Positions 2,956 through 18,967 of a DNA stretch of 20,183 nt are shown here, piece by piece. The notes under the pieces are model-generated. The model had not been told where the DNA came from, searched no databases, and saw only the letters and a list, made by a program, of their open reading frames with translations. Made by a program: the position numbers and the translations under genes. This DNA comes from a virus. How positions within the stretch are numbered: position 1 is the first letter of the stretch; each line of letters starts with the position of its first letter. The stretch is from positions 1 through 20,183 of IMG/VR virus record IMGVR_UViG_3300046028_003733, one strand, 5' to 3'.

Positions 2956-3421
2956 ATTTACTATTATTAAAGATACTAGAGAGCAAACCCCATGGCTGTT
3001 CGATTTCGAGCATACGGTTGCTGAAGAAATAGGCACTATAAAAACCGGGGACTATACAATCAAGGGCATGGAAGACAAGATTTGTATTGAGCGAAAAGGG
3101 TGTATAGAAGAGCTTGCTGGTAATTTAGGCAAGGATTTTTCTAGATTCTCCAAGGAGTTAATTCGCATGGATCAATTCCCCCACTCGTTTATTATTTGTG
3201 AATTTGCCCTAAAAGATTTAATTGAATACCCCTTCCATATGAACAATGTTAAACTTCAACAAACTGCAAAAATGAGTGGTAAGTACTTACTAAAATTAAT
3301 CATGGAAATTCAACTACAGCATAATGTAAAAATTATGTTCTGTGGAAATAAATTCTATGCCATGAAAACAGCCCTTTCATTAATGAAGAGAGTCCATGAG
3401 CGATATAGACAAACTACTTAA
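2939..3421 (+). CDS. ERCC4-type (XPF/Mus81-like) nuclease, 160 aa
   Basis: A single-domain structure-specific endonuclease with the ERCC4 active-site layout: IIKDTREQTPW with Asp12 and Glu15, TGDYT at 36-40, and ICIERKG with the ERK triad at 51-53. It lacks the helix-hairpin-helix and helicase parts of eukaryotic XPF. In phages such nucleases may act on branched replication intermediates; here it lies between an HNH gene and TerL, overlapping both (17 and 26 bases), so a part in resolving DNA ahead of packaging is plausible but inferred. The ribosome binding site is weak, so translation probably couples to the preceding gene. Confidence 0.85.
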   Translation: MKKEPEFTIIKDTREQTPWLFDFEHTVAEEIGTIKTGDYTIKGMEDKICIERKGCIEELAGNLGKDFSRFSKELIRMDQFPHSFIICEFALKDLIEYPFHMNNVKLQQTAKMSGKYLLKLIMEIQLQHNVKIMFCGNKFYAMKTALSLMKRVHERYRQTT

Positions 3422-5438: not shown

Positions 5439-7553
5439 ATGAGCGAAATGTATTCTACGTGGATTGATGATTCTTCTAAAGAAAAAGCTTTGGCAGATGC
5501 GAATGAAGCCTATACCGATAACGCTCCTGTGCAAAATGATAAAGCTTTAGGGTATAGCTACAGAACATATATTGATGTTGAACCCAATCGATCCGTTAGA
5601 ACGAGTATGACGCGAAATGACTATTATCGATTTCGCCCAGAAGAAGCCATACCTACTCGACAAAAAAGAGTTATGAAAATGTGTATGGATGCATATGATA
5701 GAGTGGGCATCGTTAGAAATGTTATTGATTTAATGGGTGACTTTGGTTCTCAGGGGATTGATATTGTTCACCCTAACAAGGCAATCGAAAGATTTTATAG
5801 AAAGTGGTTTTCACAGATAAATGGAATTGAAAGATCTGAAAGATTTTTAAACTATCTTTACAGAACTGGCAATGTCGTTATAAAGAGAAGAACAGCAAAA
5901 ATTAGCCCTTCAAAAGAAGAAGAGCTTAGAAAAGCTGCTGGAGCAGCAGATATTGAAATCGTAAATACTAAAATTGCTAAAAGAGAAATACCTTGGCAAT
6001 ACGATTTTTTAAATCCACTCTCTGTAGATGTATTAAATTATTACAACGGAATGTTTATTGGTGATCCAATATATGTTTTGAATTTATCAAAAACCACATA
6101 CGACTCTTTTACCTCATCTAATGTTACTAGTAGAAGTGGTTTTTCTAAACTTCCTCCAGATATTCAAAAGCAAATAACAGAAGGAAAAAGGCAGATACCA
6201 CTCGACAAAGAAAAAATTGAAGTCTTCTTTTATAAAAAAGACGATTGGCTGATTTGGGCCAATCCTATGCTTTATTCTATTCTAGATGACCTTGTGATGT
6301 TAGAAAAAATGAAATTAGCAGACTTAGCAGCTCTAGATGGTGCTATATCTCAAATTAGATTGTGGAGAATTGGAAGCCTTGATCACAAAATTATTCCAAA
6401 GAGAGATGTTATTAATAAACTGCGAGATATTTTAGCCAGTAACACTGGCGGTGGTACTATGGATCTTGTATGGGGTCCAGAAATTGATTTTAAAGAAAGT
6501 CAATCTCAAGTTTATAAATTCCTTGGAAGTGAAAAATACCAACCAGTATTAACTTCTATTTATGCTGGACTAGGAATTCCTCCTACTCTAACAGGTGCTG
6601 GTGGCTCAAGTGGTGGGTATTCAAATAATTATGTTTCATTAAAAACCCTTATCGAAAGACTTGAATATGGCAGACATGTATTAACTCAATTCTGGAAAAA
6701 AGAAATTGAAATAGTGCAGAAGGCTATGGGTTTTAGACTTCCTGCCCAAATTAGATTTGATAATATTATCTTATCTGACGAGTCCGCAGAGAAACAACTT
6801 TTAATTAATCTTGCAGATAGAGGTATACTTTCAGATCAAACAATACTGGAAAGATTCGGAGAAATGCCTGATATTGAAAAAACTCGCGTTAGAAGAGAAG
6901 AACAAAGTCGTAGAAATGATAATTATACGCCATTCAAAGCTAGTCCATATCATAATCCAAACATTAGATCTGACGTGGCAAAAATACTTGTTACCAAAGA
7001 TGGGGTTGATGATTCATATTATGAAGATGAACTAGGTCTTCCAAAAATAGATATTCCAATTCCTGCTCCAAAACCTTTTGGTGGGGGTTCGTCAACTCCA
7101 GCTAAATCTGTACCAAGTCCTCAAGGCGGCAGACCTGTTAATCAAAAAGATAAAATCAAAAGGAAAACTAAAGTTGTACAGCCAAAATCCAAAGAGGCTA
7201 CCGCAGTCTTATGGGCTTATAATATTCAAAAATCTATAGCAGATGAAGTTACTCCAATGATGTTAGATTTTTATAATAAAAAGAATGTTAGGAGTTTAAC
7301 CAAAGCTGAATTTAGTCAATTAGAATATTTAAAACTATGTTTATTAACTGGATTAGAACCGTTTATAGAATTAAACCCAGAAATAATTAAAGACCTTATT
7401 GAAAATGGACACAAGCCATCGCATGAATTTTTAGAACAAGTTGCAGAAGAAATGGAAAGTTTTGTGTATAGTAATTCAAGAAAACCAACAGTAGACGAAA
7501 TGAAATATATATACGCTTCTGTGTTTATAGATTTGTCATCTATTGAAGATTAA
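5439..7553 (+). CDS. Portal protein, 704 aa
   Basis: Forms the dodecameric ring at one capsid vertex through which DNA enters and to which the tail attaches. Family features are the early MCMDAYDRVGIVRNVIDLM helix and FGSQGIDIVHP segment, then FYRKWF and FLNYLYRTGNVVI (about 115-150), and the stretch YQPVLTSIYAGLGIPPTLTG with a Gly/Ser-rich loop and a long helix after it (about 360-425), which fits the tunnel-loop and stem area. A disordered Pro/Gly/Lys linker (about 535-590) separates the core from a helical C-terminal tail of roughly 115 residues ending SSIED. Position between TerL and the prohead protease supports the call. Arginine is mostly AGA, unlike the capsid gene. Confidence 0.92.
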   Translation: MSEMYSTWIDDSSKEKALADANEAYTDNAPVQNDKALGYSYRTYIDVEPNRSVRTSMTRNDYYRFRPEEAIPTRQKRVMKMCMDAYDRVGIVRNVIDLMGDFGSQGIDIVHPNKAIERFYRKWFSQINGIERSERFLNYLYRTGNVVIKRRTAKISPSKEEELRKAAGAADIEIVNTKIAKREIPWQYDFLNPLSVDVLNYYNGMFIGDPIYVLNLSKTTYDSFTSSNVTSRSGFSKLPPDIQKQITEGKRQIPLDKEKIEVFFYKKDDWLIWANPMLYSILDDLVMLEKMKLADLAALDGAISQIRLWRIGSLDHKIIPKRDVINKLRDILASNTGGGTMDLVWGPEIDFKESQSQVYKFLGSEKYQPVLTSIYAGLGIPPTLTGAGGSSGGYSNNYVSLKTLIERLEYGRHVLTQFWKKEIEIVQKAMGFRLPAQIRFDNIILSDESAEKQLLINLADRGILSDQTILERFGEMPDIEKTRVRREEQSRRNDNYTPFKASPYHNPNIRSDVAKILVTKDGVDDSYYEDELGLPKIDIPIPAPKPFGGGSSTPAKSVPSPQGGRPVNQKDKIKRKTKVVQPKSKEATAVLWAYNIQKSIADEVTPMMLDFYNKKNVRSLTKAEFSQLEYLKLCLLTGLEPFIELNPEIIKDLIENGHKPSHEFLEQVAEEMESFVYSNSRKPTVDEMKYIYASVFIDLSSIED

Positions 7554-11078: not shown

Positions 11079-14929
<3,851 letters not shown>

Positions 14930-14933
<4 letters not shown>

Positions 14934-15628
14934 GTTTTTCTATACCAACACTAAGAGCATATAGAATTACTACGGGCGGTATAACCCCAGCAGCCCCAAC
15001 TTTTAGTGTTGGGGTATCATGCAATGGATCTTCTAGTGTATTAAATGGATTTTTTAGCACTGCAACTGCTGGATCTTCTTTAGTATATACGACAAATGGA
15101 AGCGATCCAGTTTATGGGTCTAATGGAACTACAATTCCATGCGCAACTGGTTATTTTGTTACTACAACTCCTACATCATGTGAACAACAAAATATTGGGG
15201 CCGCTATATGCTCTTCTGGAACAACAACTATAAAAGCTATTGCATATTTAAGTGGACAATCAAGTAGTGTAGCTACTACTACAGCATGTAGAACTTGTCC
15301 GGGTAGTTTAACAGCTCCAACTTCTATTACATCGAGTTGTCCATTAGGTGGAGGAATGGGATGTAATGGTGGACAAATCTCATTTACAATTTCTGGAGGT
15401 GGAGGAGGATGTGCAGTGCTTAGATATACAATCGCAGAAGGATCTGCTCCTGCTGATCCAACAATAAGTAGCAATAGCGCAACAGAGGGAACTGCGTTTA
15501 TTTACTACGGAACAACTCCAGCTACTTTCCCTCCAGTGCAAGTATACATAAAAGCAGCATGGTTTGATCCAAGTTGCAGTTTAGTATCGGCAATTACATC
15601 TGCTCAGAATGGATATGTTTATCCTTAA
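14930..15628 (+). CDS. Cysteine-rich beta-sandwich virion protein, 232 aa
   Basis: Residues about 45-118 match the pattern of a chitobiase/beta-hexosaminidase C-terminal (CHB_HEX_C-like) domain: [19 protein letters not shown] followed by [20 protein letters not shown] second, weaker copy runs about 150-222 ([18 protein letters not shown], then [15 protein letters not shown]). These are small immunoglobulin-like sandwiches often attached to carbohydrate-active or adhesion proteins. Ten cysteines (31, 71, 84, 94, 120, 123, 137, 145, 161, 216) are unusual for a phage structural protein made in the cytoplasm; CRTC and nearby Cys could bind metal or form disulphides after release. There is no signal peptide. 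The ATG overlaps the fibre stop as ATGA, so translation is coupled and the protein is probably part of or near the fibre. Specific function unknown. Confidence 0.7.
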
Positions 15629-15646: not shown

Positions 15647-16291
15647 ATGGGAACCTCATATAATCCTAAAATAGTAACAGATGGACTAGTCCTTAATTTA
15701 GATGCTGCAAATAGAAAAAGCTATTCGGGGTCTGGGGCTAATTGGGTTGATTTAAGTAAAAATAATAGAAATGGCACAATTGTAAATGCAGTTTGGAGTT
15801 CAGCAAATGCTGGTATATTTACTATGAACACCTCTCAATACATAACAATTGCTAATACTGATTTTAGAACTGGTACATATACTATTATAGTTGCAAGTAG
15901 ATTAACGGGTGGCGCAAATTACAGAATTGTAACGGGTGCATCTAATAATTATTTACTTGGAACTTGGAGTGGACGCACAGACGAATATTTTTCTGAAGGT
16001 TGGGTAAGTCCAGAGTATAATGTTCTAGCAGATACTAACTGGAGAATACATGTTGGAACAGTAGATACTGGAGCCGACAATTATCAGCTATATTCTAATG
16101 GAATTTTAGTCTCGTCAAATAATGGTGGATCGCAAGGACCATATGGTATTAATATTAATACCGGATACTATGCTTATAATACTGAGAAGTCTAATTGTGC
16201 TATATCATTTATTCTTGGATATAATAGAGTATTAACTCAAGCGGAAATAGTAAAAAATTATAACGCATTAAAAGGAAGGTTTGGTCTATGA
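15647..16291 (+). CDS. LamG/concanavalin A-like virion protein (single domain), 214 aa
   Basis: One LamG-type jelly-roll domain filling the protein: the opening strand PKIVTDGLVLNLDAAN (7-22), WVDLSKNNRNGTI (33-45), YTIIVASRL strand, WRIHVGTVDTG and YQLYSNGILVSSNN strand pair, and the closing helix-like AEIVKNYNALKGRFGL. Such domains bind glycans or surface proteins, so an adhesion role is likely. It is the short member of three neighbouring paralogues sharing the DAANxKSY start and KGRFG end. AAAGGCG precedes the ATG. The codons for KGRFG contain AAGGAAGG (16272-16279), which also serves as ribosome binding site for the next gene; the two genes overlap as ATGA. Confidence 0.85.
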   Translation: MGTSYNPKIVTDGLVLNLDAANRKSYSGSGANWVDLSKNNRNGTIVNAVWSSANAGIFTMNTSQYITIANTDFRTGTYTIIVASRLTGGANYRIVTGASNNYLLGTWSGRTDEYFSEGWVSPEYNVLADTNWRIHVGTVDTGADNYQLYSNGILVSSNNGGSQGPYGININTGYYAYNTEKSNCAISFILGYNRVLTQAEIVKNYNALKGRFGL

Positions 16292-17643
16292 GTTTATCAC
16301 ATCACCCTAGTATAGTTAAGAATGGATTAGTTGCATATTTTGATGCGGCAAATCCCAAGAGTTATCCTGCGGGTCAAGACCCTTTTGTTAATAATGTGAG
16401 TTTAATGCTTGATGGCGAAAGCCTAATTGACAAAAGCGCAAATGCAAGAACTTTCACTGCCTCGGCAGGAGCGTCGATTAGCACCGCAAATAAGAAATAT
16501 GGAAATTCTAGTATATATTGTAATGGAAGTAATAGTTATATTTATAACAGTTCATTTAATAGCTCTTTTAGTGGTGATTTTACTATTGAATTTTGGGTTT
16601 ATTTTAATGCATTGAGTTCGATAAATAATTTAATTTTTATAGGAAATGAATCATCAGGAAGACATGGTATTTTTATTAATTCAATTGGAAAACCAGCAAT
16701 AGATTTATATTTTACTGGAACTATAGTAACTTTTAATTCAACAATTACAACAGGCTCTTGGGTGCATCTTGCTTTTGTTAGAACTGGAACAACAGTAAAA
16801 TTATTTGTCAATGGGGTTCAAGATTCAACAACTGGAACTATATCTGGAACATATGGAAACGCAAATGGAGTTTATATTGGCTCAGATTCCAATGCAATTT
16901 ATTCAACTAATGCATATTTTGATGACATAAGAATAACTTCGGGAATTTCAAGATATACGGCAAGTTTCACTCCTCCAACAGCTCCGCTATCTTTACCCGG
17001 AGTGGTAACTGATTTAACTAAGAATAGAGTAGTTGGCACTCTTACCAATGCTCCTACTTATAATTCTGGCAACGGCGGCAGTATAGTATTTACAAGGGCT
17101 AGCAATAACTATGTTAGTGTGGGAGCTTTATCTGGATCTTTTGCTTCATTTTCAGTAATCGTATGGTTTTATGCAACGAATATTGCAAATTATGAAAACG
17201 TATTAGATTGTAATTATGCATATAATGGCACTACCGGAAATATTGGACCAAGACTTGAGATGAATGCGGCTGGAAATTTAGGTTGGGTATATTCAAATAT
17301 TACAAATAATAATGACTCGCACTATTCGCATCCGGTTATTGATAGTGGGATGACTGCAAATTCTTGGCGTTGTGTCGGAATTAGTTATAATAGCAATGGT
17401 AATTCTTCTGTCACTTATTTAAATGGTTTAAACACTGGAAAATCTAGAGTAACCAATGGTTCCGCTACCGGATTTATAGCGACCATGAACAATCTAAGAA
17501 TTGGTCAAGGATTTAATTTAGATTCATATACACAAAGAGGATTTGATGGTAGAGTGTCTATGGTTCAAATTTACAACAGGACTTTAACAGCGGCTGAAGT
17601 TCTTCAAAACTACAACGCCACAAAAGGAAGGTTTGGTTATTAA
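16288..17643 (+). CDS. Double LamG virion protein with nested domain, 451 aa
   Basis: Second LamG paralogue. It opens like the single-domain neighbour (PSIVKNGLVAYFDAANPKSY, 7-26), then a whole extra LamG domain follows (about 30-239: VNNVSLMLDGESL, GDFTIEFWVYF, WVHLAFVRTGTTVKLFVNG, FDDIRITSGISRYT), and only then does the first domain resume (VTDLTKNRVVGTLTNAP, 240-256) and run to NYNATKGRFGY at the end. The outer domain is therefore split by the inner one. A carbohydrate- or surface-binding role in a fibre is inferred from the fold. Start: ATG overlaps the previous stop, with a Shine-Dalgarno inside the upstream KGRFG codons. Confidence 0.87.
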   Translation: MSLSHHPSIVKNGLVAYFDAANPKSYPAGQDPFVNNVSLMLDGESLIDKSANARTFTASAGASISTANKKYGNSSIYCNGSNSYIYNSSFNSSFSGDFTIEFWVYFNALSSINNLIFIGNESSGRHGIFINSIGKPAIDLYFTGTIVTFNSTITTGSWVHLAFVRTGTTVKLFVNGVQDSTTGTISGTYGNANGVYIGSDSNAIYSTNAYFDDIRITSGISRYTASFTPPTAPLSLPGVVTDLTKNRVVGTLTNAPTYNSGNGGSIVFTRASNNYVSVGALSGSFASFSVIVWFYATNIANYENVLDCNYAYNGTTGNIGPRLEMNAAGNLGWVYSNITNNNDSHYSHPVIDSGMTANSWRCVGISYNSNGNSSVTYLNGLNTGKSRVTNGSATGFIATMNNLRIGQGFNLDSYTQRGFDGRVSMVQIYNRTLTAAEVLQNYNATKGRFGY

Positions 17644-17662
17644 ACGATGAACGGAGTGAATC

Positions 17663-18967
17663 ATGGGTAATTCTGCTGGACCTAAAATAACTAAAGATGG
17701 ATTAGTGCTTGACTTTGATGCAGCAAATCCCAAGAGCTATAATTTCTACGCCGACTCTTATGCTAGTAATGTTAGCTTATACCTTCAGATGAATGGGGCT
17801 AATGGGTCAACTACTTTTACAGACTCTAGCCCGAATGCATTGGCGGTGACTGCGGTTGGTAATGCTCAAATTAGCACAACTCAAAGTAAATATAATGGCA
17901 CAAGTGCGTATTTTGATGGGACGGGAGATTATTTGTCAATTGCAGCAAACTCAGCTATAGACTTAGGTTCAGGTGATTTTACAATTGAATTTTGGGTTAG
18001 ACCCGCCGCTAAAACTAATGCTGTCGATGCAGTTTTTGGTTATGGAAATTATGCATGTATGTTCTATCACAATGGGACAAATTGGACACTAGAAATGTCC
18101 TCAACAGGCTCTTCAAATCAATTAGTTATAACTTGTGCTGTAACATTAAATACATGGCAACACATAGCAATTGTTAGAAATGGTAGTAGCATAGTTGTTT
18201 ATAAAGATGGCGTGTCATCTGCAACCGGAACTTTTACTGGGACAGTAACCACTAATGCTAGAACTTTAAGGATTGGAGACAATGGAAATAGTCAAAATAT
18301 CAACGGCTATATCGACGAATTAAAAATCACAAAAGGCGTAGCTCGCTATACATCAGCATTCACATCTCCTCCCATTCCTTCTACTTGTACAGATTTAACT
18401 AGAAGTAAAAACGTAGGAACTTTAACTGGTGGAGTTGATTATAATTTTTCTAATGGTGGGAGTTTAGTATTTGATGGAACTAATGACTACATAACATCTC
18501 CAACTTCAACCCTGTTTAATTTCGGAACTGGAGATTTTACTATTGAAATGTGGGTTTATCCAACTTCAGTTAAGACTTTTTCATTATTAGACTTTAGAAT
18601 TAATGAGACTAACCCGAATGGCAACGCTTTTGTTATTGGAACGAGTGCTTCAAATTTTTGGGTCGTTTATCAAAATGGAAACCAAATAACTGGCCCAACT
18701 GTAGTAGCTAATCAATGGGTGCAACTTGTTGTAAATAGAGTTGGAACTGCTGTAAAAATGTTTTTAAATGGGGTTCAAGCTGGATCAACTTGGACAACTT
18801 CAAATACCTTTACAGATGGCGCTTTTGTATTAGGTACTGATTATCCATTAAATGCAAGATTTTTTCAGGGTAATGTATCATCAGTAAAAATATATAAAGC
18901 TAAAGGGTTAACTTCAACAGAAGTATATAATAACTTCGTAGCTAATCGTGGCCGTTTTGGTGTATAA
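17663..18967 (+). CDS. Double LamG virion protein with nested domain, 434 aa
   Basis: Third LamG paralogue, built like the second. The opening strand PKITKDGLVLDFDAANPKSY (7-26) is followed by an inserted LamG (about 28-240: ASNVSLYLQMNG, TFTDSSPNALAVTAVG, GDFTIEFWV, WQHIAIVRNGSSIVVYKDG, GYIDELKITKGVARYT). Then the outer domain resumes (CTDLTRSKNVGTLTGGVDY, 242-260; GDFTIEMWVYP; WVQLVVNRVGTAVKMFLNG) and ends NNFVANRGRFGV. The inserted domain is of a type very common in phage structural proteins. CGGAG precedes the ATG. The stop overlaps a GTGTATAAT sequence that may be a fifth promoter copy. Confidence 0.87.
   Translation: MGNSAGPKITKDGLVLDFDAANPKSYNFYADSYASNVSLYLQMNGANGSTTFTDSSPNALAVTAVGNAQISTTQSKYNGTSAYFDGTGDYLSIAANSAIDLGSGDFTIEFWVRPAAKTNAVDAVFGYGNYACMFYHNGTNWTLEMSSTGSSNQLVITCAVTLNTWQHIAIVRNGSSIVVYKDGVSSATGTFTGTVTTNARTLRIGDNGNSQNINGYIDELKITKGVARYTSAFTSPPIPSTCTDLTRSKNVGTLTGGVDYNFSNGGSLVFDGTNDYITSPTSTLFNFGTGDFTIEMWVYPTSVKTFSLLDFRINETNPNGNAFVIGTSASNFWVVYQNGNQITGPTVVANQWVQLVVNRVGTAVKMFLNGVQAGSTWTTSNTFTDGAFVLGTDYPLNARFFQGNVSSVKIYKAKGLTSTEVYNNFVANRGRFGV

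Follow-up and report, generated by a model that had tools for sequence, protein, structure and literature searches.

Putative phage adhesins in which a laminin G fold is interrupted by whole domains at one loop

The window analysed here, that is, the whole stretch of DNA under study, is an IMG/VR virus contig of 20,183 bp. It carries a head-and-packaging block, with the terminase at 3396 and the portal at 5439, followed by a gp80-like fibre protein (10629), a collagen-like fibre of 1,284 residues (11079) and three tandem genes encoding laminin G (LamG) proteins, named P1, P2 and P3 (Table 1). A nucleotide-sugar epimerase gene, whose product resembles GDP-mannose 4,6-dehydratase in sequence, is located at 1689-2723; with an ERCC4-type nuclease and the large terminase encoded immediately downstream, this is an unusual location for a sugar gene. 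The collagen-like fibre (11079-14933) has long repeats of the GxTGATG type. In the related locus L005 its C-terminal part is 99% identical, and its gene looks split or rearranged in three other loci (L004, L088 and L124). The 232-residue protein encoded at 14930-15628 has a weak Fn3_assoc match just under the Pfam cut-off and is 100% identical in L005, despite the strongly variable genes adjoining it. Rfam returned no match in the window.

Table 1. Positions of the LamG genes and of their parts in the window
Feature	Position	Strand	Basis
P1, plain (empty-socket) LamG protein, 214 aa	15647-16291	+	ORF list, three-protein alignment; groups with plain form
P1 empty socket: 6-residue loop SGSGAN, strand A (GLVLNLDAANRKSY) to WVDLS	15725-15742	+	three-protein alignment
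80-nt arm, P1 end through P2 strand A	16270-16349	+	identical in empty-allele phage L005
P2, LamG-in-LamG protein, 451 aa	16288-17643	+	ORF, Pfam, alignment, AF2
P2 residues 1-26: N-segment with outer LamG strand A	16288-16365	+	empty allele L005:3244-3978; AF2 strand 14-19
P2 residues 27-240: inserted LamG and linkers (strands 37-218)	16366-17007	+	alignments, allele comparison, AF2, profile-profile
P2 residues 241-451: remaining outer LamG (TDLTKN ... KGRFGY)	17008-17640	+	94.3% nt identity over 636 nt to empty allele
P3, LamG-in-LamG protein, 434 aa	17663-18967	+	ORF, Pfam, alignment, AF2
P3 residues 1-26: N-segment with outer LamG strand A	17663-17740	+	alignments; AF2 strand 15-18, pLDDT <50
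P3 residues 27-242: inserted LamG and linkers (strands 37-224)	17741-18388	+	alignments, AF2
P3 residues 243-434: remaining outer LamG	18389-18964	+	core up to 80% identical to plain proteins L013, L014

The alignment of the three proteins reveals a common N-terminal segment of 26 residues (DAANRKSY or DAANPKSY). In P1, this segment continues through a 6-residue loop to W-VDLS, as the first-pass annotation had noticed, and in P2 and P3 approximately 214-216 extra residues enter at the same alignment column. The claim that both inserts share one entry site therefore stands. We refer to this position as the socket, which is empty when it holds the short loop and filled when it holds a domain. 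The insert takes the place of the usual loop (consensus PGSGTTW) and is thus not a clean addition; in the locus L093, by contrast, it is a pure addition. Pfam Laminin_G_3 (PF13385) matches two stretches in each of the longer proteins (109.3 bits for P2 and 144.4 bits for P3, against a cut-off of 27.6). P1 gave no Laminin_G_3 match in Pfam at E values up to 1, and it was placed through its alignment with the plain family. Foldseek searches with the models of P2 and P3 returned laminin LG4-5 pairs as the best PDB matches (E ~1e-11 to 1e-12), with low global TM scores, so that the match is to be read domain by domain. Clostridial neurotoxin receptor-binding domains also appeared among the fold matches and as a weak Pfam match; they were set aside as sharing only the lectin fold.

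The comparison with close relatives carries most of the weight in deciding how these domains are arranged. L005 (IMGVR contig 3300042907_000878) is nearly the same phage, with protein identities of 100% for the upstream gene and 97% for the downstream gene. Its LamG genes are, in order, filled, empty and filled, whereas those of the window are empty, filled and filled. At the P2 site, the two phages share an identical 80-nt tract that spans the end of P1 and strand A. The insert then follows in the window, and the short loop KKSYLGTGTVWTDLT in L005; beyond this point they are again 94.3% identical over 636 aligned nt. In L004, whose terminase is 87% identical, all three LamG genes are filled. 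The Pfam LamG counts, six in the L004 record and five in the L005 record, are as expected. The presence of the insert thus varies between near-identical strains. The insert of P2 is nearest to the inserts found in the P1 gene of the relatives L005 and L004 (~79% nucleotide identity over the first 775 nt), and the module is therefore not bound to a single gene. A second, independent pair is provided by a gene of Synechococcus phage S-SKS1 (L256, empty) and its filled counterpart in L093. Here 242 residues are inserted, with 96% identity over the 102 nt before the site and 95% over the 200 nt after it. The nested arrangement is not a matter of chance, since empty and filled orthologues have flanking DNA that is 94-100% identical.

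Read in this light, residues 1-26 of P2 and P3 form the first strand of the C-terminal (outer) LamG, with a complete second LamG of ~210 residues lying between this strand and the rest of the domain. The empty alleles, which link residues 1-26 directly to the C-terminal part, are the main evidence for this topology, and the AF2 models are supporting. A profile-profile comparison (hhalign) of the plain domain with the insert gave 99.6% probability and an E value of 2e-23, with strand A placed on strand A. Each of the two domains therefore possesses a first strand of its own, and the outer domain is entered just after its strand A. The AF2 model of P2, built on a 37-row alignment, has a pLDDT of 84.5 and a pTM of 0.67. 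It predicts a strand at residues 14-19 (block pLDDT 86), insert strands between 37 and 218 and outer strands between 239 and 429, plus a C-terminal helix. Because the 37 rows were picked so that the plain sequences set the N-segment at the N-terminus, this model is not independent evidence of topology. For P3, a shallow neutral alignment of nine nested sequences gave a mean pLDDT of 71, and residues 1-27 fell below 50.

It is conceivable that residues 1-26 are a free linker or belong to the first LamG, in which case the two LamGs would simply be consecutive, as in the tandem LamG arrays that are frequent in phage proteins. The poor prediction of the N-segment in the shallow P3 model is consistent with such an arrangement, and L-INS-i alignments can set this segment either way. 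Larger MAFFT runs set it beside the C-terminal part instead, and a deep alignment of plain, nested and insert-only sequences did the same or else matched the plain domains to the insert; only the 37-row selection was free of this. A plain tandem is nevertheless very unlikely. It conflicts with the direct joining of the N-segment to the C-terminal part in the empty alleles, with the confident strand at 14-19 in P2 and with the wide distribution of the inserted subfamily, whose members have a strand A of their own and occur in the absence of this N-segment. Thus the first-pass proposal of a LamG nested in a LamG in both P2 and P3 is borne out by the empty alleles, with which hhalign and AF2 agree. 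The intermediate forms among relatives that it had suggested looking for exist as empty alleles.

The socket is not special to the P2 and P3 paralogues, and in other phages it takes different domains. We scanned all fetched loci separately for the N-segment and for the C-terminal part, which yielded approximate counts of ~150 plain (empty) and ~20 filled cases; the gap was exactly 6 residues in 122 of the 150 plain ones. CBM-like jelly rolls (of the 'ENLLLYSEDFSNAYW', 'NLVN' and 'NLIPNSEDF' types) occupy the socket in L086 (two genes), L127, L091 and L263 (two genes). They are also found in the 735-kb uncultured phage LR756501, in gene 221 of Flavobacterium phage immuto and in the cyanophages S-MbCM7 (gene 179, annotated as a structural protein) and S-RIM44. 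Pfam returned no match for these inserts, which we take to be CBM-like from their sequence character, such domains being known in phages. The socket of L199 holds an F5/8-type-C-like domain (E 2.5e-4, under the Pfam cut-off) and that of L129 a Gly_rich_2 domain (82 bits). A domain of ~140 residues (GLSVSGTVRIYVTFG...) without a Pfam match is present in L015:3744-4817 and L193:42-1112. The scan of bacterial and archaeal genomes found 10 distant relatives, none of them seen filled. A search with a degenerate pattern for the DNA junction matched only three contigs, all already among the known loci.

The inserts of P2 and P3 belong to one subfamily and share one site, and in L004 all three genes are filled. 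These observations could be explained by a single ancient insertion followed by gene duplication to give P2 and P3, with the empty genes as secondary losses and no reusable socket. We consider this unlikely, on account of the unrelated domains found at the same site in other phages, of the L093 insert, which constitutes a separate empty/filled pair, and of the tree of the outer cores. In this tree, P2 and P3 do not group with each other; P2 joins the empty L005 gene and P3 joins the empty genes of L013 and L014, both groupings being starred. A starred clade of eight comprises five empty, two other-filled and one LamG-filled member, and the starred branches force at least five changes of state. 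P1, on a long branch, is unplaced. The tree overcounts insertions, because core swapping alters the labels; as seen for P3 and L013, an exchange of cores can turn a filled label into an empty one, or the reverse, without any insertion.

A pattern that such an exchange would leave is seen when P3 of the window is compared with that of L005. Identity is 83-100% in residues 1-84, 217-264 and at the C-terminus, whereas in both cores (about 121-204 and 265-408) it falls mostly to 8-38%. This alternation of variable binding cores with nearly invariant arms suggests exchange by homologous recombination. Hypervariable cores with conserved flanks in genes of the receptor-binding type could also point to a diversity-generating retroelement or a similar targeted mutator acting on the LamG loops. 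We regard that explanation as highly improbable. Whole cores differ, with insertions and deletions and not scattered substitutions, and no reverse-transcriptase match (PF00078) was found in the related contigs of 155 kb, 91 kb and 14 kb, which may be incomplete. The hypervariability of both cores does make it plausible that the nested proteins present two binding faces, as the first-pass annotation had suggested. Its further proposal of a rigid two-point link is speculative, the pTM of the P2 model being 0.67.

Nesting also occurs at further sites of the fold. In SWZG_00005 of S-SKS1 (L269:114-2996; 960 residues, hypothetical protein), three pieces match the outer LamG profile in collinear order, namely residues 5-124 (profile 2-120), 378-409 (134-165; weak, 7 bits) and 906-960 (171-225). 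The stretches between these pieces hold one whole plain LamG (138-359) and two LamGs of the insert type (421-651 and 660-903). When the outer pieces are joined, the whole profile (2-225) is matched at 142 bits. L093 (168-3704) has the same arrangement with an additional LamG in the first socket. One LamG thus appears to be in three pieces (four in L093), with up to three interruption sites that together hold three or four complete LamGs, and similar cases are found in L038 and L043. We had read L038, L043 and L093, with gaps of more than 245 residues, as tandem; this reading was dropped, as the S-SKS1-type gene (L038, L043, L093, L256 and L269) is truly interrupted further on. L227, also with a gap of more than 245, remains tandem. 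A crude screen for insertions elsewhere gave none; it was confounded by the inserted LamGs and was replaced by the later analysis that found the S-SKS1-type sites. The LamG jelly roll may accordingly serve as a recursive docking scaffold with at least three usable loops (in SWZG_00005 and L093), whose domains would be added, removed and swapped via the conserved arms as a cassette system without a dedicated recombinase. We see this broader view as evenly balanced between right and wrong.

Taken as a whole, the observations are best explained by paralogous LamG adhesins with a loop socket, whose modules are exchanged via the arms and bind glycans from the virion, a reading to which we assign a probability of roughly 0.78. 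In the model that we propose, P1, P2 and P3 are paralogous phage adhesins, each constructed around a LamG (concanavalin-A-like) jelly roll. The loop that leads from its first strand (GLVxxxDAANxKSY) to the following conserved segment (W-xDLS/T) would be the socket, able to hold either the 6-residue loop of P1 or a complete second domain. The inserted domain is expected to have its N- and C-termini next to each other, which would allow the outer fold to close although it is split in sequence. The plugged-in domain of P2 and P3 is a LamG of another subfamily, and elsewhere it is CBM-like, F5/8-C-like, glycine-rich or of another type. Homologous recombination between the arms of paralogues or of co-infecting phages would add, remove or swap the binding modules, possibly with a gain in host range. 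The proteins would be carried on the virion and bind glycans of the host surface. Their role as a virion adhesin is likely, because the annotations of relatives name structural or fibre proteins and the genes lie behind the collagen-like fibre.

The closest known kind is the evolved Dit, the distal tail protein of siphophages, which exists in classical empty and evolved filled forms, with phages of both kinds coexisting (PMC10688798, PMC6669499). In the filled form, the N- and C-terminal parts can be aligned to the complete empty form, and the insert is a carbohydrate-binding module shown to change adsorption (PMC10688798, PMC6669499). The LamG proteins likewise occur as empty and filled alleles whose N- and C-terminal parts align, and by analogy it is likely that glycan-binding modules can be added or swapped in them. 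The scaffolds differ, being Dit itself in the siphophages and, here, a LamG jelly roll whose gene lies in a cluster that follows a collagen-like fibre. The PHROGs matches are to LamG-type virion, baseplate-wedge or unknown families and none is to a distal tail protein, and the proteins are at most Dit-like in action. Additionally, the insert in the LamG proteins can match its scaffold in fold. A single site takes several domain types, and in some genes as many as three sites are interrupted.

In a broader perspective, 20% of multidomain proteins contain an insertion, and in 65.8% of insertion events the partners come from different homologous groups, hence about a third fall within one group (PMC13114784). 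Together with the filling of the same loop in many phages, these figures do not support the first-pass description of such nesting as uncommon. As in A1-B-A2 insertions generally, where inserted domains have close termini (PMC13114784), the insert is compact, should be capable of folding alone and is expected to have its termini close together. Inserts are usually smaller than their hosts (PMC13114784), but here the insert is similar to its host in size and fold, and its presence varies between strains. Nesting itself is not rare; the wider finding is a reusable and sometimes recursive socket of phage LamG proteins. Among the papers searched, none joined laminin G, domain insertion and phage. 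One outer adhesin domain that is empty, LamG-filled or CBM-filled in related phages, even with nearly identical neighbours, amounts to a natural experiment, and the contribution of the inserted module to host recognition becomes testable. A loop that tolerates whole domains may also be of use in protein engineering.

The cyanophage proteins SWZG_00005 to SWZG_00008 of S-SKS1 (PF13385) contain the same two LamG subfamilies as the window. S-SKS1 carries the first socket as an empty allele; elsewhere in the same gene, whole LamGs cut into the LamG. These proteins are recorded as hypothetical, with no mention of nesting, and most phage LamGs are tandem or single. An annotation of tandem LamGs in a phage genome can conceal split domains. 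By eye, the core of P1 (SGRTDEYFSEGWVSP, GGSQGP) resembles that of SWZG_00007 and of L038.
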